A stretch of 64,000 nucleotides of DNA from Hyphomicrobiales bacterium. Its GTDB lineage: Bacteria; Pseudomonadota; Alphaproteobacteria; Rhizobiales; Rhizobiaceae. A program made the position numbers and the translations under genes. Each line of letters opens with the position of its first letter. The stretch's first letter is position 1. Shown piece by piece: positions 2,418-49,303 of the stretch. The stretch is taken from positions 1 through 64,000 of the forward strand of contig UBZP01000013.1 in NCBI GenBank assembly GCA_900469965.1, read 5' to 3'. The notes below the pieces were generated by a model. That model made no database searches, had not been told where the DNA came from, and was given only the letters and a program-made list of their open reading frames with translations.

Positions 2418-3632
2418 TCACCCCGTTCTCGTGTTCGTCTGACCACTCGCCCTCAACAACGCCATTATCACCGGGCCGAGAGAGAACTCCCCACGCTCAG
2501 TACGCCGTGTCAGATCTCGAAGGTAGCCCCCTGGTGAATTGATAAAGTTGGCACGCTCCAAAATGCAGGCGATTGTTGCCGCAGCATTTTCAGGACCCAT
2601 CGCCTCGCAGGCGTCCTGGTACGCCGATGGACTTATTCCCAGCATAGACCTAACAACCACCGCGGCCGACCTCAAATCCCGCCAGCTTGCAATGCCGCCG
2701 CCCGGCCCATAGTCGCAAATCGAAGGACAAGCCTTCAGGACGATTCCAAGGGGAAAGGCCTTTATGGTCTCACCGTTGAGCCTGTTGGTTGTCGCCGCCC
2801 GCGCCCCTGGCTCCCTTTCGGAGCGAGGTTCAAGTTCAATGTTAGAGTCGGGGTTTGAATTCTGTATGTGACGCTCAATTTGAGCATCATTGCCGCTCAT
2901 TTCCTCCGCATTTTCCTGCGTTTCCAGGCAATTGACGACGTCGGCGCGAAGCGCCTGCATCTCCCCCAGGATTGATGTGGCCACGTCGGTGGTCAAAACT
3001 CGCGGAATTCGACGCACAAGCGCGAGGTAGGTCGCCTCGGCTGTTTGCCAATCGCCCGGAGCTCCCTCCTCTATCGCCGCGGTGATCAATTTGCGGATGT
3101 CGCGACGGCAGATCGTCAAGGCCTCTTTTGCCGCTCTGAGTGCTGATCGGTCCTCTGCCACTTTCTGGGCCAGCATCGCCAACTCTTCCGACCTTGCGAG
3201 GAGGGGCGACAGATCAAATCCGAAGGCGTTCTCAATTTGCCCGGTGCCGTCCTTACGCGCGTACCGCTTGCCGTTCGCACTGTCTTTCCGAACGATTAAC
3301 CCGGTTTCTACGAGGATTGCGAGGTGTCGCCGCAACGTCGCGCCAGACATTCCGTGTGCTCGAAGTGCGAGCTGGATATTGGACGGAAACACAATCAGCG
3401 GCGCATCCTGACGCAGCTCATTGTTGGGATAGAAGCTCAGCAGAGCGTTGAGAACCGCGAGACTATTCGACTGGATACCGAGCAAGTCCATCGCTGCGCA
3501 GGCATCCCTGAACACCTGCCACTTGTCGGCGGTCTTGCCTTCCCGTATTTCCGCGAGTTCCTTTTGGCGCCGCACGAGCGCAAGCGAAATCGACCGCCGC
3601 CCAAAGGGCGTCGTCACCGTTCCCGTCACCAT
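2418..3632 (-). CDS. repC: RepC replication initiator
   Basis: RepC starts replication of repABC plasmids, binding an origin that in this family lies inside the repC coding sequence. The 404-residue product is of usual length. Its N-terminal half has the winged-helix DNA-binding region (VFPSNIQLALRAHGMSGATLRRHLAILVETGLI). A variable polar linker follows (about residues 235-285), then the conserved C-terminal domain with CPSICDYGPGGGIASWRDL. It is the last gene of repA-repB-repC. A 153-bp gap separates it from repB and carries the antisense RNA that normally limits RepC synthesis. The gene appears intact, so the replicon should be functional. Confidence 0.97.
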   Translation of the reverse strand: MVTGTVTTPFGRRSISLALVRRQKELAEIREGKTADKWQVFRDACAAMDLLGIQSNSLAVLNALLSFYPNNELRQDAPLIVFPSNIQLALRAHGMSGATLRRHLAILVETGLIVRKDSANGKRYARKDGTGQIENAFGFDLSPLLARSEELAMLAQKVAEDRSALRAAKEALTICRRDIRKLITAAIEEGAPGDWQTAEATYLALVRRIPRVLTTDVATSILGEMQALRADVVNCLETQENAEEMSGNDAQIERHIQNSNPDSNIELEPRSEREPGARAATTNRLNGETIKAFPLGIVLKACPSICDYGPGGGIASWRDLRSAAVVVRSMLGISPSAYQDACEAMGPENAAATIACILERANFINSPGGYLRDLTRRTERGEFSLGPVIMALLRASGQTNTRTG

Positions 3633-3691
3633 CCGTCTTCACCCTTCAGCGGGCAAAGCAAAATCACTCACCCAAACGGTGCCAAAGACTC

Positions 3692-3720
3692 TTGACGAGG
3701 ATTCGAGGAAATGCGATTCT
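3692..3720 (+). promoter_or_regulatory. Promoter of the counter-transcribed RNA
   Basis: TTGACG (3692-3697) and GATTCT (3715-3720) are separated by 17 bases. They face away from repC and toward repB, the orientation expected for the repABC antisense RNA. The predicted start is near 3727, ten bases before the terminator hairpin begins. Confidence 0.6.
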
Positions 3721-3726
3721 GTCCTT

Positions 3727-3777
3727 GCTAGAGAGACAAAAGGGCTTCCGCGACGGCGACGTTGTGGGGGCTCTTTT
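3727..3777 (+). ncRNA. repABC counter-transcribed RNA (ctRNA, incompatibility RNA)
   Basis: In repABC plasmids a small RNA from the repB-repC gap, antisense to the repABC mRNA, represses repC translation and acts as an incompatibility factor. Here the gap has a plus-strand promoter and, near repB, a hairpin with a 17-bp stem. AAAAGGGCTTCCGCGAC (3738-3754) pairs with GTTGTGGGGGCTCTTTT (3761-3777) when G-U pairs are allowed, across a six-base loop. The G-U pairs make the hairpin stable only in the plus-strand RNA. The 5' end is inferred from the promoter, giving an RNA of about 50 bases. Confidence 0.8.
3738..3777 (+). terminator. Intrinsic terminator of the ctRNA
   Basis: A 17-bp stem (Watson-Crick plus G-U) with loop GGCGAC ends in four T residues at 3774-3777. 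It lies just downstream of repB on the opposite strand, the usual place for the ctRNA terminator. Confidence 0.8.
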
Positions 3778-3785
3778 CCTTTGCG

Positions 3786-4808
3786 TTACTCTCCCTGTTT
3801 GCCTTGCAGCTTGTCCCGGTGCGCTTGATACAGCGCCGGCAATTGTTCGAGCACGAAGGCCGCAAAATCAGGCGTTGCCCTCTTGTCGATGATAATCTCG
3901 AGCTTTGCCTTGCTTTGTGCCACCTGGGCAATTCTCTTGCCGTCTGGAGTAGACATCACACCTGGAAGCCCGCGGGCCACACGGTTGGGCTTCAACGCCA
4001 ACATGAGTGACTTGAACCTTTCGGCAGATGGCAAGGCCTGAACTTCATCGGATAAAACATGGCTCAGCGCGTCGGTTGAGGTTGACGCCTTCTCGAGCAG
4101 TTCCACCAGTTGTTGCCAACTCGGCCGTCCGACACCCGGAGCGGGACCGATCGCATCAATGAGTTCCGATGGCAGGGCATCCACAAGCAGAAGCATCTTC
4201 GACAGGTTGCTCTTGTCGAGCGACATTGCTGCGATGACGATCTCACGAGGAAACTGCTTGTTCAGATGATGAGCGAAGCGCGCTTTCTCGATGAAAGTCA
4301 GGTCTTCGCGTTCGTTGTTCTCCTGCCCCTGTGCGACAACGAGCTGCTCATCCGTCAAATCGCGAACGACCGCCTTTACCGGACGCCCCAGTTCCGAGAG
4401 CGCCCGTAACCGCCGGTGCCCGAATGCGACCTGATAGCGGGCGGACTTTTCCGGATGAGGCCGGACAAGAATCGGAACTTGCTGGCCCTGCTCTCGAATT
4501 GACGCCAGCAAACCGTCAATATCTCCTGGCATTCGGTCACGCACGAAAGAGGGCTCAATCGTGGCTGGCTCAAGCTCAACGACCGACTGACCCTCGGCAA
4601 GACGGCGCTCAATCTCCTCGGCGCGGCTGAGGCGATCGTTCTGCTCGCGAAGAGCATTGCCAATGTTCGCTGTCAGTTTGGTCGCCGGATCGCGTTCTTT
4701 CCTCGTCACGCCAAGCAGCGGCATGGAGCGGCTCTTCGGGAGACGGCCGTCTCCCGAAGTTGGTTCATGGATGTCCGGCGACAGGCCAAGGATGTGCTTC
4801 CGACTCAC
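3786..4808 (-). CDS. repB: RepB, ParB-type partition protein
   Basis: RepB binds the centromere-like parS site and works with RepA to segregate the plasmid. The 340-residue product has a ParB/Sulfiredoxin-type N-terminal domain including the YQVAFGHRRLRA box and the ENNEREDLTFIEKA segment. A KorB/HTH region and a RepB-type C-terminal domain follow. The start overlaps the repA stop by four bases (ATGA), so translation is probably coupled. I looked for the repABC parS consensus (GTT-N4-GC-N4-AAC) around the operon and did not find a clear copy. Confidence 0.97.
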   Translation of the reverse strand: MSRKHILGLSPDIHEPTSGDGRLPKSRSMPLLGVTRKERDPATKLTANIGNALREQNDRLSRAEEIERRLAEGQSVVELEPATIEPSFVRDRMPGDIDGLLASIREQGQQVPILVRPHPEKSARYQVAFGHRRLRALSELGRPVKAVVRDLTDEQLVVAQGQENNEREDLTFIEKARFAHHLNKQFPREIVIAAMSLDKSNLSKMLLLVDALPSELIDAIGPAPGVGRPSWQQLVELLEKASTSTDALSHVLSDEVQALPSAERFKSLMLALKPNRVARGLPGVMSTPDGKRIAQVAQSKAKLEIIIDKRATPDFAAFVLEQLPALYQAHRDKLQGKQGE

Positions 4809-6031
4809 GAGCGTCTACCCCATGCTTTTTTAATCAGGCCTTCGATTTCGTCGTTGACCGCATTCATCGCCTCGAGGGCTCGATCGTAGGTCGAGCGCGT
4901 AAACTGGCTGCGTTCGACCTCAAAGAGCGTCTGGTTGGTCAGACCGGCATCGGAAACGGCGGTCGTTTTCAGCATGGGAAAATTGAGGACATTTTCCCCG
5001 AAGATCGATCTCAGATAGCCGACCATCTGGTTTTGTGGCCCGTCGCTCGGCTCAAAACGGGTGATCAGGTAGCGCATCCAATTAAAGTTGAACTGAGCGC
5101 CCGCGTTCTCAATCTCCCGCAGCAGGTTCGACGTCATCGCCAGGAACTGGTTCATTGACATCACATCCAGCATCTGCGGATGGACGGTCACCAGGATCGA
5201 CGTTGCAGCGGTGAGGGCGGAAAGCGTCAGGTAGCCGAGTTGAGGCGGGCAGTCGATCACAACGACATCGTAGTTATCCGCAATGTCTTCAATGACTTTG
5301 CTGATCCGACCATAAAACAGCGTATCACCCTCCTTGCGCTGCATCAGTGCGCGCGGCGTGTCGTGCTCGAATTCCATCAATTCGAGGTTACCCGGGATCA
5401 GGTGAAGGTCGGGAATGTACGTCCCGCGAACAACCTGCTCGACCGGTACCTGTTCGTCATCGTAGCGGATGGCGCCGTAGAGGGTCTCATTCGGACCGAC
5501 ATCCGTCTCGGGCTGACTGCCGAAGAGCGCTGAAAGGCTTGCCTGCGGATCGAGATCGATTGCTAGCACGCGGTATCCGCGCATTGCGAGGTATTGAGCC
5601 AAGTGCGCAGCAGTCGTCGTCTTTCCCGATCCGCCTTTAAAGTTCATCACCGAGATGCATTGGAGTTGTTCATCGCCCCGGCGGTGGGGGAGGTAGCGAC
5701 GAGTGCCCCTGCCAACCTGGTCCAGATGCCTGCGAATGGCGTGGATATCGTCTATCGAAAAGGTCCGCCGGCCGCCGGGGCTGATGCTGACGTTCAGCTC
5801 TGGCATTTCGGATGCCGTTTGCCGCAGATAGGACTCGCCAATCCCCAGAAGCTTCGAAGCCTCCGAGGGAGCGAACGTCCGAATCCCCTTCTCCGCAGTC
5901 GGAGGGAACACCTTGACATGATGTGCCTGAAGTTGAGTAGAAAGTGCATCGGCATGACGCTCCATCAAGGCGGTCAGGCCTTCGCTTTGAGGTGCATGTT
6001 TTACGGCGGCCTTCGCCATCTCAAAACCCAT
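4805..6031 (-). CDS. repA: RepA, ParA-type partition ATPase and operon repressor
   Basis: RepA is the Walker-type ATPase of the RepAB partition system and usually represses its own operon. The 408-residue protein has an N-terminal helix-turn-helix region (about residues 50-110: FAPSEASKLLGIGESYLRQ). The deviant Walker A motif KGGSGKTT is at residues 132-139, followed by AIDLDPQASLS and the VVIDCPPQLG Walker B region. A second ATG lies four codons in (6019), so the exact start is uncertain. The promoter and a 13-bp inverted repeat lie directly upstream. Confidence 0.97.
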   Translation of the reverse strand: MGFEMAKAAVKHAPQSEGLTALMERHADALSTQLQAHHVKVFPPTAEKGIRTFAPSEASKLLGIGESYLRQTASEMPELNVSISPGGRRTFSIDDIHAIRRHLDQVGRGTRRYLPHRRGDEQLQCISVMNFKGGSGKTTTAAHLAQYLAMRGYRVLAIDLDPQASLSALFGSQPETDVGPNETLYGAIRYDDEQVPVEQVVRGTYIPDLHLIPGNLELMEFEHDTPRALMQRKEGDTLFYGRISKVIEDIADNYDVVVIDCPPQLGYLTLSALTAATSILVTVHPQMLDVMSMNQFLAMTSNLLREIENAGAQFNFNWMRYLITRFEPSDGPQNQMVGYLRSIFGENVLNFPMLKTTAVSDAGLTNQTLFEVERSQFTRSTYDRALEAMNAVNDEIEGLIKKAWGRRS

Positions 6032-23755: not shown

Positions 23756-24490
23756 TTAGCTTTGAGAGCGGTTTTTAAAGCGCCAGGATTCGTTCCCGGT
23801 TTCCACGATCTCGCAATGGTGGGTGAGCCTGTCGAGCAGAGCGGCGGTCATTTTGGCATCGCCGAATACGGCTGGCCACTCGCCGAAGGCCAGGTTCGTC
23901 GTGACGATGATCGATGTCCGCTCATAGAGCCTGCTGATGAGATGGAAGAGGAGCTGGCCGCCGGCCTGAGCAAATGGGAGATAGCCCAGTTCGTCCATGA
24001 TGACGAAGTCGAGTCTGGTGATGAAGTCGGCCAGCCGCCCCTGCTTTCCGCTGCGTGCCTCCGTTTCGAGCCGATTGACGAGGTCGACGACGTTGAAGAA
24101 GCGGCCACGTGCGCCGTTGCGGATTAGGGCGCGTGCGAGCGCGATGGACAGGTGGGACTTCCCCGTGCCGGTTCCGCCGACCAGAACGATATTGTGCTGC
24201 TCGGCGAGGAAGGCTCCTGTCGCAAGCTGGCGCACGAGCCCTTCGTTGACCGGCGTGTCGGTGAAGTCGAAGTCGTCGATGTCCTTGGCCAGCGGCAGCT
24301 TGGCCACGGTGATCTGGTATTTGATGGAGCGCGCCTGCTTCTCGGCGATCTCCGACTGAAGCAGGTCACCGACGATGCGCGGCGGTTCGTGCTGTCGCTT
24401 GATGCCGGAGGCCATGATCTCGTCATAGGCGCTGCGCATGCCGAACAGCTTCAACGCGCCCATCATGTCGAGGATTTGGGATCGTTCCAT
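23756..24490 (-). CDS. istB: IS21 helper ATPase IstB
   Basis: IstB is the AAA+ helper that assists IstA in IS21 transposition. The 244-residue protein has Walker [19 protein letters not shown], a Walker B region ([19 protein letters not shown]), and the sensor region STIITTNLAF-like ([19 protein letters not shown]). It is close to the usual family length and intact. It sits one base downstream of the istA C-terminal fragment. Confidence 0.95.
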
Positions 24491-24491
24491 A

Positions 24492-25990
24492 TCAGCTTGC
24501 CCTCCTGAGGCTGTCGTAACGGGCGCAATCGGCCAGAGGCTCGTGGGTCAGGCGAAGCGCATCGGGAATGGAAAGGATGGCGGCCGGCTGCGGGTCACGC
24601 TTGCGGGCCAGAATGTTGATGATGACAGCGGCCGAGAACACGCCCTGATCGAGCGCCTCCTGGCAGGCCGCTTCGACGGCGGGGAGCCCGTCCAGGCCCA
24701 CACATTCGAGGATCGACACCATCTGCCGGTCGCCGTCATGCATGGCCTTCAGCCGGCGGCGCACCTTCTCCATGGCGGCGGGCAAACCCAGTCGTGGAAA
24801 GGCGCACCATTGCGCAGGGCTCCCGGCTTGCGGGTCAGGACCGGCACGTAATGCCAGGGATTATAGATCGTCTCGCCACGGCCGAAGCAGCGATCGTGCT
24901 GGCCAATCTCCACGCCATCCTGCCGGATGATGATGCGATCGGCATAGGCATGTATCTCGGCCGGACGACCGACTGCCGTGGACAGCACGGAGTATTTGTT
25001 GTTGTCGAAACGCACGAGGCAGGTCTTGCCGATCGAGGCCTGCACTGCGTGGAAGCCGTCGAATTTGCCGGGATAGCCGACCAGGTGCGGCCGCTCCGCA
25101 TCGAACACCTCCCAGATCGTGCGCTCCGTCTGATCGACGTGCTTATGAGCGCGGGCGTAACTGATGCACTTGTCCAGCAACCAGCCATTCAGTTCATCGT
25201 AGGATTTGAAGCGCAGCCGCGGCGTGAAGAAGCGTTCGCGCACCAGATTGACCTGGTTCTCGACCTGGCCTTTCTCCCATCCCGACGCCGGCGTGCAGGC
25301 CACCGGTTCGATCAGGTAATGGCTGCACATCTGTAGGAAGCGGCGATTGTATTGCCGTTCCTTGCCGACGAAGACCGTCTCCACCGCGGTCTTCATATTG
25401 TCATAGATGCCGCGCGTGCAGGCCCCGCCGAAGAAAGCGAACGCCCTGTCATGGGCGTCGAAGACCATCTCTTGCGTCTCGCGCGGATAGGCTCTCACAT
25501 ACATCATCCGGCTGTGGCAGAGCCGGATATGCGCAACCTTCACCGTCGTCGTCACGCCGTTCAGCACGACGATCTCGTGGCTCCAGTCGAACTGGTAAGC
25601 TTCGCCCGGCGCATAATAGAGCGGCACGTAGGCTTCCGCCGTTACGGAGCCGCGCTCCTTCGCCCAGGTTCGGGCGTAACGCCGGACTGTGTCGTAACCG
25701 CCCTCGTAGCCGAGGTCGCGCAAGTCCTCGAATATCCGGATCAGTGTCAGCCGTTCGCGAGAGGATTTGGCCTCATTGGCGAGCAGCATTCCATCGAGTT
25801 GATCGCGCCAGGGGCCGAGCTTCGGCTGAGGTTGACGGGTCCGCTCGTATTTGAACTCCGTCTCATCGGTGCGCAAAACCTTCCGCACCACTTTCCGCGA
25901 CATGCCCAACTCCCGGCAGATCGCCTTGATCGACTTGCCCTGAACATGGGCTAGCCGCCGTATCTTCAGAATTGTTTCCACAATAAGCAT
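24492..25990 (-). pseudogene. istA: IS21 transposase IstA, frameshifted
   Basis: The first 400 residues (from ATG 25990) include an N-terminal HTH (SIKAICRELGMSRKVVRKVL) and the rve DDE domain (PGEAYQFDWSHEIVVLNG, GIYDNMKTAV, KGQVENQVNLVRERFF). At about 24784 a base is missing: DWV is followed by CPPPW instead of LPAAMEKVRRRLK. The tail continues in the next frame to 24492. Restoring one C gives a single protein of about 500 residues. As written the protein is truncated after the catalytic domain, losing the IstB-interacting tail. Confidence 0.88.
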
Positions 25991-45237: not shown

Positions 45238-45756
45238 CTACATCAGGCGCAGCACCATGATCACCTCCTCGTTCTCGCGACCATGGCCCAGGAAGCCATT
45301 TGGGATACGGCCAGTCTCGACGAACCCATGCCGTTGATAGAAGCCAATCGCCCTCGCGTTCTCAGAATTCACCGCCAGTTCCAGCTGCAGAACGCCACGG
45401 TTTCGCGCATGCTCTGTAACCTCGTGCAAGAGGCGGGCCGCTACCCCGGTCCCGCGCGCGCCCTTCCGCACATAGACGCTCACAAGTTTTGCACGATGGG
45501 CCAGTTTCCTTGCATGCTCAAACCTGAGCCCCATCATGCCGACGGGCACCCCGCTCAAAAACGCGACAAACACAGGTTGGGCCAGGTTTTGGCGCCATTC
45601 CCGGTCGGTGAGGCGGACCCAATCGCCAAAGACACTCGCAAAGGAGAGTGGTTCGTGCGACAGCGCCTCCAGGCGCATGTGGCGAAGCACGTCTACGTCT
45701 TTGCTTGACAGGCGCCTGACCGTCACCTTCTCTTCGACAGGCACATCGATCTCCAC
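45238..45756 (-). CDS. GNAT family N-acetyltransferase
   Basis: A 172-residue acetyltransferase with the CoA-binding motif A (LVSVYVRKGARGTGVAARLLHEV, R-x-x-G-x-G) and motif B (NSENARAIGFYQRHGFVETG). VFVAFLSGVPVGMMGLRFE is the central strand. GTG start at 45756; a second GTG nine codons in is also possible. It lies 96 bp downstream of the quorum-regulated operon on the same strand and could be co-transcribed with it. Confidence 0.9.
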   Translation of the reverse strand: MEIDVPVEEKVTVRRLSSKDVDVLRHMRLEALSHEPLSFASVFGDWVRLTDREWRQNLAQPVFVAFLSGVPVGMMGLRFEHARKLAHRAKLVSVYVRKGARGTGVAARLLHEVTEHARNRGVLQLELAVNSENARAIGFYQRHGFVETGRIPNGFLGHGRENEEVIMVLRLM

Positions 45757-45852: not shown

Positions 45853-47256
45853 TCAAGAACCAGACAATTGCCACTCGACGGCCTCCAGGGCGATATCGCC
45901 ACTGGCAATGCGCCTCGACAGATCCGCCCACATGGGATCCCTGGTGAAACTGCCAAGATCTCCGCTCGCCCGTACCAGGGGCATCCGCGCATATTTTGAA
46001 AGACTAACAGCAGCACCACGGTCGATCTCCCGCAACGGATAGCCGTTGGCAGGCTTCAAGACACGATGGCCCCAGACCCCGGACCGGTCGTCTTGCCGAA
46101 GTTCCGTCAGGAGGCCGTTTTCGTTCGATTGCTGAAGGCCGAGCGCTGTGAGGTAGCGCATCAGCGGATAGTAGATGGTCTGCCGACATCCACCGAGCGC
46201 TCTCACACCTGGCAAAATGGAAATTACCAGGAACGCGATGTACAGGCTGGGCACGATCACACGCGCGCGTAGCGCGGCTGCAATGGTGTCGGGACGGAGC
46301 TTCACTTCGAAGGCCGGCAAGTTGCCAGCCCTTAGGATCTCGCCCTCAAGGTGGAGCGGAACAATTCTGCCTTCTTGCAGTCCCCAGAAAAAGTCGGTCG
46401 TTCGGCGGACCCACCCTTGCCAGGGGCCCGTATTCAGACGATCGATCGCCTGCAAGCGGTTCCGTGCAACGCTGCCGTCTGCGAAGAAGCGAGCCGACAA
46501 CCAGGATGCTGCCTCGTCGAGATGGGCGGCGACAAGGTCGGCGATGTCGAAGTCATCCAGTTGAAGCAGCCTGATGGGGCAGGGCATCTTACGACGCCAC
46601 AGCACTTGATTGGCCGCCCTGATAGCTTCGGCGGCTGAGGCATATTCCTGCCCGGAAAGGGCATCGAGGAGACCGGCGGCTGATTTGTTTGGCGGGCGTT
46701 TTCCCGTCGCATTGGTGAAAGCGAAGCGATACGGACCATTCAGGCCACATATGCTGAACGAATCCATCCGGCTTCGCGCAAGGCCGAAGACATTGAGAGG
46801 CTCGCCTTCGAGCCAGAGCCAGCCGGGACCCTTCTTGGCCTTCTCCGTAAAGCTGACCGTTGAAGCGTGGTAGGTGATGTACCATTCCAAGCCATGCGCC
46901 TTCAGACCTAGCAGGCTGAACAGATGCGTGTAGTATGCGTCTGGCTCGATCAGCAGCAGGCAATGCGGGCCCGTCTGAAGCGCCGGTGACGCCGCCAACT
47001 GACGGCTCGCACTCCTCGCTTCCTCCTGTCGATAGCCGGATCGACACGCAGCGCCCTCGATGCACGAGCAAAGAAGGTCCATGGCATGACGACGCACCGG
47101 GTTATCGGAACGGAAACGCTCGACATTGTAAACAGCCGACGCATAGTCCGAAAGCGGACGGCGCCAGTACGGAGCAAGATACGGCATCAATGCTGAGAGC
47201 GCACTTTGCACCTCGGTTGGGCTGCAATGTTCGATGGCTTTCGGAGGCACCGACAT
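45853..47256 (-). CDS. Unknown 467-residue protein, second gene of the lux-box operon
   Basis: I do not recognise this protein. The ATG at 47256 comes one base after the stop of the preceding gene (TGAGATG), so it is translationally coupled. A TTG at 47283 is less likely. The sequence appears soluble, with one possible hydrophobic segment (VPSLYIAFLVISILPGV, about residues 340-356). Notable parts are CLLLIEPDAYYTHLFSLLGL, YHASTVSFTEKAKKGPGW, NVFGLARSRMDSFSICGLNG, and GCRQTIYYPLMRYLTALGL near the C-terminus. Asp- and Cys-containing motifs could be catalytic, but no known signature is visible. Context suggests a biosynthetic enzyme acting with the methyltransferase-fold protein under LuxR control. 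Confidence 0.7.
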   Translation of the reverse strand: MSVPPKAIEHCSPTEVQSALSALMPYLAPYWRRPLSDYASAVYNVERFRSDNPVRRHAMDLLCSCIEGAACRSGYRQEEARSASRQLAASPALQTGPHCLLLIEPDAYYTHLFSLLGLKAHGLEWYITYHASTVSFTEKAKKGPGWLWLEGEPLNVFGLARSRMDSFSICGLNGPYRFAFTNATGKRPPNKSAAGLLDALSGQEYASAAEAIRAANQVLWRRKMPCPIRLLQLDDFDIADLVAAHLDEAASWLSARFFADGSVARNRLQAIDRLNTGPWQGWVRRTTDFFWGLQEGRIVPLHLEGEILRAGNLPAFEVKLRPDTIAAALRARVIVPSLYIAFLVISILPGVRALGGCRQTIYYPLMRYLTALGLQQSNENGLLTELRQDDRSGVWGHRVLKPANGYPLREIDRGAAVSLSKYARMPLVRASGDLGSFTRDPMWADLSRRIASGDIALEAVEWQLSGS

Positions 47257-47257
47257 C

Positions 47258-48325
47258 TCATGCAGCCAGACGCTTGGGCGCAACCAGCATCATGGTCGTC
47301 GGGCAACGCCACGCCAGACTCGGCGCCAATGGGTGAACATCGGTGTCGATGACGACGGTCGGCAACTGCGCATAGCAATAGCCAGGGGGAATAGCCGGTT
47401 TCAGCATCATCGAGGTCAGTTCCAGCACGGACGCCCGGGAATTGGACGACACGAACGTGTAAAAGTTCCCGCTGTTCCAGGTCAGCACGGAGTACCGGAA
47501 GAATGATCTCAGAGCGGCTACTGTGGCCGACAGATCGACCTGAAGCTCCGCCATCGTGTCGAGGACTTCATCCTTCTTCTCCGATATGTGCCCTGCGGAG
47601 AAGTACCTGGACTTGAAAATCTCGTCCTTCTGCCGCTCGCGTTCGTGGTAAATCTGGGGGTCAGGATGAGAGAGCTTTTGCACTTGGACGAGGAGACCGC
47701 CCGGTCGGATCCGGGGACAGATGAACTCGAGCTGGGCGCGCCGGTCACGGTCGTACATCTGAAACGTCGTGTCCTCGAAAAGCACGTCAAATCCACCCTG
47801 AAATGGCCGTAGATCCTGGTCTGTGGCGTAACGCCCGTCATCCAGCTCGAAGAACGGCCCCTGGAAGAAGTGTGCGTGATCGCTCCCCCGTTTCGCAAAG
47901 AACGATGTCCGGTTGGCTGCCGTTGGGCTGCAGCACAGGGACTCGATGCGACCATTGCCAAGCGCGGCAAGCGTTCGCGCAAGGCATCCAGTGCCAGTGC
48001 CCAGGGTGTAAATGGTCGACGGGGAGCCGCTGCGTGCCCAGGTCCTCAAGCAGAAGGAATATATCGCAGCCCCCAGCCGGCATTCCTCTTCGAGCCGGTA
48101 GGGAATGCTTGCAAAGTAATGGCCGTCAAAGGGGCCCCAGAGGCGTCGGTGCGTATCCGCGAGAACCGCACCTTCGAGATCGAAATCGAGCAGTCCCATA
48201 TCAGGTTGTGGGTCGGCAAGATCCGGTGCTCCACCCTGTCCGCTTGCAGTCCTTTCGAAGAACGCGGCGAAGGATGTGAGCCTTGGAGCGTTTCGCCACC
48301 GTTCAATCACCTCACGATCCACCAT
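47258..48325 (-). CDS. SAM methyltransferase-fold protein, first gene of the lux-box operon
   Basis: A 355-residue protein with a Rossmann methyltransferase core. Motif I is TIYTLGTGTGCLARTLAAL; GRIESLCCSPTAANRTSFF follows, and FDVLFEDTTFQMYDRD, then FICPRIRPGGLLVQVQKL as the post-II strand. About 100 residues precede the core and about 110 follow, with SSNSRASVLELTSMM near the end. The methyl acceptor is unknown. GGGAG lies seven bases before the ATG. It is preceded by a lux-box-like palindrome at 48452-48473 and coupled to the unknown gene downstream. Confidence 0.75.
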   Translation of the reverse strand: MVDREVIERWRNAPRLTSFAAFFERTASGQGGAPDLADPQPDMGLLDFDLEGAVLADTHRRLWGPFDGHYFASIPYRLEEECRLGAAIYSFCLRTWARSGSPSTIYTLGTGTGCLARTLAALGNGRIESLCCSPTAANRTSFFAKRGSDHAHFFQGPFFELDDGRYATDQDLRPFQGGFDVLFEDTTFQMYDRDRRAQLEFICPRIRPGGLLVQVQKLSHPDPQIYHERERQKDEIFKSRYFSAGHISEKKDEVLDTMAELQVDLSATVAALRSFFRYSVLTWNSGNFYTFVSSNSRASVLELTSMMLKPAIPPGYCYAQLPTVVIDTDVHPLAPSLAWRCPTTMMLVAPKRLAA

Positions 48326-48451
48326 AGCAAGCTCCCAGTATTCTCACAGATGGCGCTTGTCCGACATTCCCTCGAGACAATTGCCTGCCGCTAGTGCGGA
48401 CGGCTCATTAGTTTCAGGTCTTCATCTGTGAACCCGTAGGAGGCGACAGCC

Positions 48452-48473
48452 AACCTGCCGAATTCGGCAAGTT
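48452..48473. promoter_or_regulatory. lux-box-like palindrome
   Basis: The 22-base element has halves AACCTGCCGAA and TTCGGCAAGTT, which are inverted copies except at one pair. This has the size, dyad and CTGCCG core of binding sites for LuxR-type regulators. It lies between luxR (ends 48521) and the methyltransferase-fold gene (starts 48325), about 127 bases upstream of that start. Confidence 0.75.
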
Positions 48474-48520
48474 GACTTTCCAGGACCGAGGGGGCCGTCT
48501 CACCTCGAGAGCGAGCGCCA

Positions 48521-49303
48521 TCAAAATGCGATCAGTTCGAGCAGGCTTGCCTTGGCAACCGCGTGATGGCTTGTAGAAGCGCCAAGTTTGAGCCGCGCCG
48601 ATCGAAGGTACAATTTGACGGCGGTTTCGGAGATGCCCAGATCAGCTGCGATCTGTTTGTGAATCCGGCCTTTAGCAAGCAGGTCAAGGCACTGATATTC
48701 GCGCCTGGAGAGGCCTCGATAACCGTCATCCTGTCGCAGACCCCTCACCGCCAGCACTGTTTCATGGATATGGTGGGCGAGGATATGAAGCTCATGCATG
48801 CTTGAGGCAAGCAGACGCGACCAATCACGTTTGGGCAAGTTCGACGCCGCGGAAAACAGACTGCGCTCGCCCTTCGGGCCTCTGACAGGGATGGTCAAGC
48901 CATGAGGGCCGATGTTGTAGGACCGTGCTTCCTTAAACAACCGCCAGACCTGTGCGGACTGCCGATCCAACGAAGACCAGTCCACCGGCAGAAGCGCCCA
49001 TCGCATGACCCCGATAACCGGGTCGATTTCGAAGTACCGATTATGGGCATAAGTTTTCAACCAGGCGTCGGGATAGGTCGTGCAGTAATAGGGGTACCGG
49101 TCTGCTCTGCCTCCACTGCGAACAACAAGGAGTGTCATGTGCGACAGCCCGTATCGTGCGCAAAGTTCGTGCAGCGTGGGATTCAGCGCCTCGTTACTTT
49201 TTGCCGCCTGCAGCGTCCGCAGGGACGCCGCCAGTCTACGGTGGTCGAAGATGTCAGGAATGTTACGGTTCGCTACCACGTCGCCGGATCCTGTTAGGTC
49301 CAT
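48521..49303 (-). CDS. LuxR-type quorum-sensing regulator
   Basis: A 260-residue LuxR regulator with an N-terminal autoinducer-binding domain and a C-terminal HTH (LSRREYQCLDLLAKGRIHKQIAADLGISETAVKLYLRSARLKL). The AHL-pocket residues conserved in TraR/LuxR align by spacing: Trp81, Tyr85, Asp94-Pro95, Trp109 and Gly135. This indicates binding of an acyl-homoserine lactone rather than a non-AHL solo. No luxI-type synthase is present in the window, so the signal must be made elsewhere or by other cells. It is followed by a lux box and a two-gene operon on the same strand. Confidence 0.92.
   Translation of the reverse strand: MDLTGSGDVVANRNIPDIFDHRRLAASLRTLQAAKSNEALNPTLHELCARYGLSHMTLLVVRSGGRADRYPYYCTTYPDAWLKTYAHNRYFEIDPVIGVMRWALLPVDWSSLDRQSAQVWRLFKEARSYNIGPHGLTIPVRGPKGERSLFSAASNLPKRDWSRLLASSMHELHILAHHIHETVLAVRGLRQDDGYRGLSRREYQCLDLLAKGRIHKQIAADLGISETAVKLYLRSARLKLGASTSHHAVAKASLLELIAF

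Follow-up and report, generated by a model that had tools for sequence, protein, structure and literature searches.

The window analyzed here is a 64,000-nucleotide stretch of a plasmid contig (UBZP01000013.1) from a member of the Rhizobiaceae. It contains, on the reverse strand, a gene for a LuxR-type regulator followed by genes for a SAM-fold enzyme (hereafter MT), a protein of 467 aa (hereafter OrfB) and a GNAT-family acetyltransferase (Table 1). A palindrome is located between the LuxR and MT genes, 46 bases from the stop codon of the former and 125 bases from the ATG of the latter. The first-pass annotation described MT and OrfB as translationally coupled; the junction TGAGATG is indeed present, with one base between the TGA of MT and the ATG of OrfB, and an alternative TTG start at 47283 would yield a longer OrfB of 476 aa. 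The GNAT gene lies 96 bases downstream of OrfB. In all 24 comparisons (4 genes with 6 relatives each), pN/pS is between 0.21 and 0.50; the LuxR, MT and OrfB genes are confirmed to be intact and under purifying selection.

Table 1. Coordinates of the features of the LuxR-MT-OrfB locus in the window
Feature	Coordinates	Strand	Basis
LuxR-type regulator, 260 aa, AHL-type ligand domain	48521..49303	-	Pfam Autoind_bind and GerE
24-bp palindrome, probable LuxR operator (lux box)	48451..48474		Shuffles, conservation
MT, CmoA/CysG-like class I SAM-fold enzyme, 355 aa	47258..48325	-	AlphaFold, Foldseek, profile
OrfB, 467 aa, predicted BshC-like fold, probable amide-forming ligase	45853..47256	-	AlphaFold, Foldseek
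GNAT-family N-acetyltransferase, 172 aa, probable third member	45238..45756	-	Pfam Acetyltransf_1, locus counts

In the regulator, both the Autoind_bind domain (E = 3e-29, 101.8 bits, cut-off 23) and the GerE domain (E = 3e-12, 46.3 bits, cut-off 23.5) are recognized. The AHL-pocket residues listed in the first-pass annotation (Trp81, Tyr85, Asp94-Pro95 and Trp109) are all in place and are invariant in the 32 operon-linked LuxR proteins, the one from the window included; we take them to correspond to W57, Y61, D70, P71 and W85 of TraR. The domains and pocket residues are shared with LuxR solos and with rhizobial TraR and BisR, and the ligand is probably an AHL. The protein scores below the NCBIfam TraR equivalog cut-off (43.9 bits vs 250). 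In a midpoint-rooted tree that included six TraR sequences, the 32 linked LuxRs are separate from these TraRs: the smallest clade that includes all of them has 36 leaves, taking in four LuxRs that are not linked to the operon but no TraR. The linked proteins do not form a single pure clade, the largest such clade comprising 12. The window LuxR further differs from LuxR solos and rhizobial TraR/BisR in having a probable operator of its own in front of an enzyme operon.

That the window holds no luxI, as noted in the first-pass annotation, is correct, but the plasmid contig carries both a luxI gene (C13:173446-173979, the only PF00765 match in the genome) and a traR-like gene. The regulator resembles a LuxR solo in having no luxI next to it, the only luxI being about 124 kb away on the same contig, and the presence of luxI and the traR-like gene implies that it may read the plasmid's own signal. 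The plasmid also carries a Ti-type transfer region, with the tra genes about 106 kb from the operon. Elsewhere in the window, at 23756-25990, there is an IS21-like gene pair, recognized by eye. To our knowledge, few targets are known for unpaired LuxR regulators of rhizobial plasmids. Rhizobiaceae-specific LuxR solo subgroups are named in a review (PMC10134790), in whose main text the word 'methyltransferase' does not occur.

The 22-base near-perfect palindrome initially reported between LuxR and the operon is real: its core (48452-48473) was matched in none of 100 shuffles, and it extends to 24 bp with 11 of 12 pairs matching. A search of the 5.34-Mb genome with the IUPAC pattern (at most 2 mismatches) yields one occurrence. 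Absence of the palindrome from related loci had been named in the first-pass annotation as an observation that would speak against its reading; an operator was detected upstream of 31 of the 32 MT genes located directly behind LuxR (the sole exception is L018) and of none of the 37 AraC-type homologues, the former count being partly circular because the consensus was derived from the same loci, with the AraC group and the shuffles serving as controls. With 50 shuffles per region, one or more shuffled sequences attained the cut-off of 16 matches in four of these 32 LuxR-type regions and in six of the 37 of AraC type, and 31 of the 32 real LuxR-type sites outscore all their own shuffles. The operator is absent from both luxI-type loci. 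Among the 98 regions scanned, 27 were classed as 'other', and 14 of these have the operator, some being truncated copies of loci that enter the counts elsewhere (L001 represents the window itself); in another of them, L031, LuxR is present but further away. Seven others of the 14 (L032, L035, L038, L039, L056, L061 and L090) retain the operator with no LuxR found directly upstream, so the operator does not always go with a neighboring LuxR. Across the scanned loci, nothing matching the known sites in strength (scores of at least 24) turned up outside MT upstream regions, except for one extra site each in L032 and L061; weaker extra sites, scoring 12 to 20, were detected in L031, L039, L048, L050, L055 and L073 and, on the window's own contig, in L110. 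These observations support the conserved operator as the mark of the LuxR-type version of the operon, and the palindrome is a probable lux box.

The gene neighborhoods were analyzed in 80 loci, the best among 104 candidates retrieved by searching with OrfB, which is therefore present by construction; MT is encoded in 79 of the 80, counting MT anywhere in the fetched stretch and with near-identical R. phaseoli/etli loci and some same-genome pairs included. MT and OrfB thus belong together, and the order LuxR-palindrome-MT-OrfB recurs in divergent loci. The enzyme pair does not always stand under LuxR, given that 34 of the 80 loci show an AraC-type arrangement. The suggestion that GNAT (Acetyltransf_1, E = 1e-18) is a third member gained weight: a homologue is located within 400 bp after OrfB in 14 of the 26 LuxR-type loci, making it a probable member of the operon. 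The partners also occur apart. Of eight loci fetched from one relative genus, five have OrfB next to a GNAT without MT, and MT homologues are found with no OrfB nearby, so that a single shared pathway is not required. On plasmids of E. coli and Streptococcus, MT has a LysE exporter beside it; R. etli p42d combines MT, AraC, MFS and OrfB; and distant OrfB proteins of Bartonella kosoyi and, as a partial match, Streptomyces lie in clusters whose annotations include ATP-grasp, oxidoreductase and efflux genes. No exporter was recognized inside the window operon itself; the exporters beside the homologues favor an exported small molecule as the product.

In a further arrangement, found on pAtA6 and pAt15955, luxI overlaps MT. 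The traI(At_2) locus of pAt15955 (At15955_RS25205 to RS25220) encodes homologous MT, OrfB and GNAT proteins in the same order as the window, with a luxI homologue, which overlaps MT by 8 bases, in the place of LuxR; unlike in the window, the operator was not found there (the near-copy L013 was scanned). A biosensor detected no AHL from traI(At_2), which the authors placed in "an uncharacterized locus" (PMC7856919); the words 'methyltransferase' and 'GNAT' are absent from the main text of that article. In a limited literature search, no publication on the LuxR-MT-OrfB operon was found; PMC9601222, PMC13055273, PMC4294206 and PMC5372718 were among the articles consulted.

The AlphaFold model of MT (pLDDT 92.6) has the Rossmann-like class I fold, with Foldseek matches to CysG/BelI (E = 4e-11 to 7e-10), O-methyltransferases of beta-lactone pathways, and to CmoA (E = 7e-10), the carboxy-SAM synthase. 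The methyltransferase fold proposed in the first-pass annotation is thus borne out, with no Pfam methyltransferase model above cut-off (the best is Methyltransf_24, 20.3 bits vs 26.3). CmoA, of the tRNA wobble-uridine pathway, is also the best, if weak, PDB profile match (E = 0.0019, profile positions 187-297), and a PHROG match is labeled tRNA methyltransferase. Compared with CmoA, MT has about 45 extra N-terminal and about 55 extra C-terminal residues in the alignment. Class I SAM enzymes usually have an acidic residue after strand 1 and another at the end of strand 2. Both are missing in MT, where position 107 is T, S, V, I or L and position 131 is C, S, A or N in all 61 aligned sequences (picked by hand from 77 listed, window included); in the alignment, the two equivalent positions of E. 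coli CmoA are each occupied by D. MT retains a GxxxG turn and is set apart from CmoA and CysG/BelI by the motif EDTTFQM, invariant in 78 of 78 sequences. CysG has a His-His-Asp metal site (PMC11408123); the window MT lacks HH, which occurs anywhere in the sequence in 35 of 78 relatives. Neither MT nor OrfB is identified by PADLOC as a known anti-phage defense protein: among the five proteins scanned, the only model to match MT was mad2, over a methyltransferase region (E = 7e-5; 0.003 for the E. coli MT homologue), with no match for OrfB or GNAT. No relatives of MT or OrfB were found in the viral contigs searched.

OrfB, which the first-pass annotation could not assign, has no Pfam or NCBIfam match and may share its predicted fold with BshC, the cysteine-adding enzyme of bacillithiol synthesis. 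For the confident AlphaFold model (pLDDT 91.7, pTM 0.92), BshC is the sole structural match in PDB with E < 0.001 (4wbd, E = 4e-6, probability 1.00, but TM 0.41/0.36 and rmsd 26); the third neighbor is class I lysyl-tRNA synthetase (E = 0.06). By eye, a TG-Q/H turn near residue 95 and LP-G-G-Y near 350 occupy similar positions in OrfB and BshC. In contrast to BshC, PF10079 was absent from 16 OrfB proteins at E up to 1 and from five at E up to 10 (57 of 79 listed OrfBs, the window's included, were picked by hand for alignment), and PDB searches with OrfB alone and as profiles produced no convincing relative. A search for PF10079 across 200 genomes of the phylum gave 26 weak matches and none above cut-off, so BshC sequences were taken from plasmid records; the hhalign comparison with the resulting profile of only three sequences was not significant (E = 0.94 and 0.31, against 0.44 for an MT-profile control). 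Membership of both proteins in well-known pathways, another outcome named initially as contrary, was not seen: neither is so placed by structure prediction, Foldseek or profiles.

The regulatory unit is well supported by its architecture and by the conservation and specificity of the site. Taking the evidence together, we favor, with a probability of roughly 55%, a signal-controlled, self-contained biosynthetic operon on a plasmid with a Ti-type transfer region. Under this model, LuxR, probably AHL-bound and perhaps with the product of the plasmid's own LuxI, would bind the dedicated 24-bp palindrome and turn on MT, OrfB and often GNAT. Judging from its fold and the LysE-type exporters beside lone homologues, MT may make or modify an amino-acid-like or carboxylate building block, to which OrfB, given its predicted fold, would add an amino acid via an amide bond. 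GNAT could then acetylate the product, for tailoring or self-protection, and the end product would be an exported small molecule.

Because some loci lie inside plasmid-transfer regions, a role in conjugation has to be considered, with LuxR, MT and OrfB tuning transfer through, for example, a mating signal or modification of a transfer component. In 8 of the 26 LuxR-type loci, LuxR follows traH at a distance of no more than 400 bases, and it adjoins virB11 in a Shinella plasmid, but traH is not directly ahead in the other 18, and the tra genes of the plasmid studied here are distant, as noted above. As a raw count with no baseline, 121 of 150 OrfB plasmid records are typed conjugative, against 28 that are typed non-mobilizable, and some copies (L092, L158) reside on contigs about 6.3 Mb long. 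Given also that strong sites in the loci scanned occur only before MT, bar the two extra ones, we regard this role as unlikely. The rhizobial transfer-region genes RcgA/RcgR provide a precedent in the literature; compared by description only, these proteins (the putative alpha/beta hydrolase LPU83a_0146 and the six-TM protein LPU83a_0148) differ in fold from MT and OrfB, and the hypothetical genes of pRet42a, early suspects, are likewise described as different proteins.

Modification of a macromolecule, with MT as a CmoA-type RNA or protein modifier and OrfB as a transferase of the aminoacyl type with tRNA or protein as its target, is suggested by the CmoA and PHROG matches of MT and by the lysyl-tRNA synthetase neighbor of OrfB, albeit only at E = 0.06. 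We consider it distinctly improbable, since CmoA itself yields a small molecule, exporters adjoin MT homologues and OrfB homologues are found in biosynthetic-looking clusters. Self-cyclization of SAM to azetidine-2-carboxylate or another product, with GNAT as the detoxifier, appeared a strong lead from the GNAT and LysE neighbors and the GxxxG turn of this SAM-fold protein, especially as N-acetyltransferases and drug/metabolite transporters are often associated with such synthase clusters (PMC11794875). The signatures published there, PFNxxGN and RxxYYxxC, are present in none of the 78 MTs, all of which have EDTTFQM; on these motifs the azetidine-2-carboxylate synthase lead was rejected, and a product of SAM self-cyclization is very improbable. 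A chance assembly of neighbors on a mosaic plasmid, with no functional unit, might be read from the IS21-like pair and the separate occurrence of MT and OrfB but is hardly credible considering the recurrent gene order in divergent loci and purifying selection on all four genes.

Within the favored reading of a biosynthetic operon, a bolder proposal, tentative and on balance doubtful, is that OrfB opens a new line of amino-acid ligases resembling BshC but working beyond bacillithiol synthesis, and that rhizobial plasmids deploy the LuxR-MT-OrfB-GNAT cassette at quorum to produce a novel metabolite with an aminoacyl group, which might be a thiol or a second signal. In mycothiol synthesis, MshC is a class I-type cysteine ligase and MshD a GNAT acetyltransferase; by analogy, OrfB and GNAT might work as such a pair. 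If OrfB is a BshC-type ligase, this fold would extend past bacillithiol, with a second system for its chemistry. MT and OrfB are found again on many plasmids, with other regulatory forms on R. etli p42d and pAt15955, and the locus described here supplies a context for traI(At_2). With its single receptor, operator and operon, the conserved unit is compact enough to be tested as a whole.

The locus reported here is real and conserved. It comprises genes for a LuxR-type regulator (260 aa), a methyltransferase-fold protein (MT), a second protein (OrfB) and a GNAT acetyltransferase. Across the comparisons of these four genes with six relatives, pN/pS was 0.21 to 0.50 in all 24 cases, which indicates purifying selection on each of them. 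OrfB starts one base from the MT stop codon (junction TGAGATG). Judged by these genes, the closest named relatives belong to Rhizobiaceae. The contig (C13) is 266,755 bases long, and repABC genes were recognised from translations at 2418-6031; an IS21-like istB/istA pair was noted by eye, also from translations, at 23756-25990.

Features of the MT-OrfB locus in the window
Feature	Position	Strand	Placement
LuxR gene	49303-48521	minus	first in transcription order
24-bp palindrome	48474-48451		between LuxR and MT
MT gene (355 aa, methyltransferase fold)	48325-47258	minus	
OrfB gene (467 aa)	47256-45853	minus	
GNAT gene	45756-45238	minus	last in order

A profile search of a one-genome-per-species collection yielded 104 OrfB relatives, of which the best 80 were kept. 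Among these best 80 of 104, MT is also encoded in the fetched stretch in 79 loci (the exception is L087); the two genes are in tandem in 42 of the 80, and in 34 the locus includes an AraC gene and MT is encoded on the other strand. In Rhizobium etli p42d, which has the latter layout, the genes for AraC, an MFS protein and OrfB follow each other. A LuxR gene lies within 2.5 kb upstream in 26 of the 42 tandem loci, and GNAT, suggested in the first-pass annotation as a third member of the operon, is found within 400 bases downstream in 14 of these 26. OrfB has matches in 150 plasmid records and MT in 199.

The regulatory part of the locus is ordinary in kind. Both Pfam domains of LuxR score well above the cut-off, and the match to the NCBIfam TraR profile is far under it (43.9 vs 250 bits). 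The five AHL-pocket residues named at first pass were correctly placed and are invariant in 32 of the 32 LuxR proteins encoded directly before an MT gene. We infer that the regulator binds an acyl-homoserine lactone (AHL). When 42 sequences were placed in a tree, all MT-linked LuxRs fell within a clade of 36 leaves that includes none of the six TraRs, one of which is the traR-like protein of the same plasmid; the LuxR of the homologous locus L018 lies apart from the main group, together with an unlinked LuxR.

For the operator, a 22-position consensus was used to scan the regions upstream of 98 MT genes (at most 300 bases each), at least 16 matches being counted as a site; because the consensus was derived from the same set of loci, the controls weigh more than the positive count. 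A site beating all 50 of its own shuffles precedes 31 of the 32 LuxR-adjacent MT genes. In the same scan, the site was found in 0 of 37 MT upstream regions of the AraC-type group, in 0 of 2 luxI-type loci and in 14 of the 27 other loci, seven of which have it without a LuxR gene found directly upstream. The architecture and operator of the locus can be considered shown.

The main rival explanation is a role in plasmid transfer. The traH gene is located just before LuxR in 8 of the 26 LuxR-type tandem loci. As for the signal, the single PF00765 match in the genome lies outside the window, at C13 173446-173979, so that LuxR is locally unpaired, although the same contig carries a LuxI/TraR-type system (traR-like gene, 162910-163590; traA-F-B-H, 155367-161017). 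Ti-type transfer genes, the traR-like gene and the sole luxI were all observed within C13:154000-174000. The IUPAC pattern with at most two mismatches occurs in one place only in the whole genome, and in the scanned loci the sites equal in strength to the known ones are upstream of MT, apart from one extra each in L061 and in L032, where it lies some 0.8 kb upstream of a LuxR gene. Strong sites being nearly all upstream of MT, the operator marks this operon and not the transfer genes. On plasmids pAtA6 (L013) and pAt15955 (L168:25453-29175), it is a luxI that overlaps MT, by 8 bases, followed by OrfB and GNAT, whereas in the window a LuxR gene precedes MT. By its locus tag (At15955_RS25205), the pAt15955 luxI is traI(At_2), which its authors assign to an uncharacterized locus lying about 20 kb away from trb; their biosensor detected no AHL for it (PMC7856919).

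OrfB has no family match in Pfam or NCBIfam, and the only structural lead for it points to a fold that, to our knowledge, is known from one pathway; the enzyme pair is therefore less ordinary than the regulatory part. In a search of PDB chains with the predicted model (pLDDT 91.7, pTM 0.92), only BshC scored at E below 0.001 (4e-6, probability 1.00), with a modest TM-score of 0.41 and a large rmsd of 26; the next two matches, with E-values of 0.04 and 0.06, were an uncharacterised protein (probability 0.07) and class I lysyl-tRNA synthetase (probability 0.94), respectively. Comparison of the OrfB profile with one built from three BshC sequences was not significant and no better than the control. 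Given this and the modest TM-score, OrfB may work like a BshC, the enzyme that joins cysteine to glucosaminyl-malate (PMC5372718), which is not to say that it is one.

The methyltransferase fold assigned to MT at first pass is supported by its predicted model (mean pLDDT 92.6), the best structural matches being CmoA and the O-methyltransferases CysG and BelI of cystargolide and belactosin biosynthesis (PMC11408123). The profile match to CmoA has an E-value of 0.0019. The acids that CmoA carries after strands 1 and 2 are both missing in 61 of 61 aligned MT relatives. Together with the EDTTFQM motif, present in 78 of 78 MT sequences, this suggests unusual SAM chemistry or another ligand.

Each gene also occurs apart from the other. 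On plasmids of E. coli (two small mobilizable, one conjugative) and on one of Streptococcus, MT without an adjacent OrfB neighbors a LysE-type exporter. These two-gene cassettes (L014, where the exporter gene spans the record start, L170, L171 and L015) seem suited to making and exporting an amino-acid-like compound. In Sinorhizobium medicae, MT without OrfB adjoins an alanine-racemase-type gene; on a Leuconostoc plasmid (L022), an MT-homolog fragment was seen near CrcB and chloride-channel genes. Conversely, of 8 loci fetched from one related genus, 5 (L157, L158, L160, L161, L164) carry OrfB beside GNAT but no MT, these OrfB proteins being about 26 to 30 percent identical to that of the window. 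Distant or partial OrfB matches were found in a Streptomyces cluster (L021) and on a Nitratidesulfovibrio plasmid, and Bartonella kosoyi pTLV-1 (L020) encodes a distant homolog with annotated ATP-grasp, aminotransferase, oxidoreductase and MATE exporter genes. Both L020 and L021, whose annotated genes include ATP-grasp, an oxidoreductase or dehydrogenase, and efflux functions, resemble hitherto undescribed biosynthetic clusters. Genes for CapA, PepT, alanine-racemase-type proteins and amino-acid-type ABC transporters recur near the pair in L011, L018, L019 and other loci, as though the product were taken up or broken down.

Two further explanations, that the pair modifies a macromolecule or synthesizes an azetidine, are weaker than a transfer role, and azetidine synthesis is contradicted by the motifs. 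The best-supported reading is an operon for an exported small molecule, amino-acid-derived or aminoacylated, under a dedicated LuxR, with the ligand, activation, reactions and product all putative.
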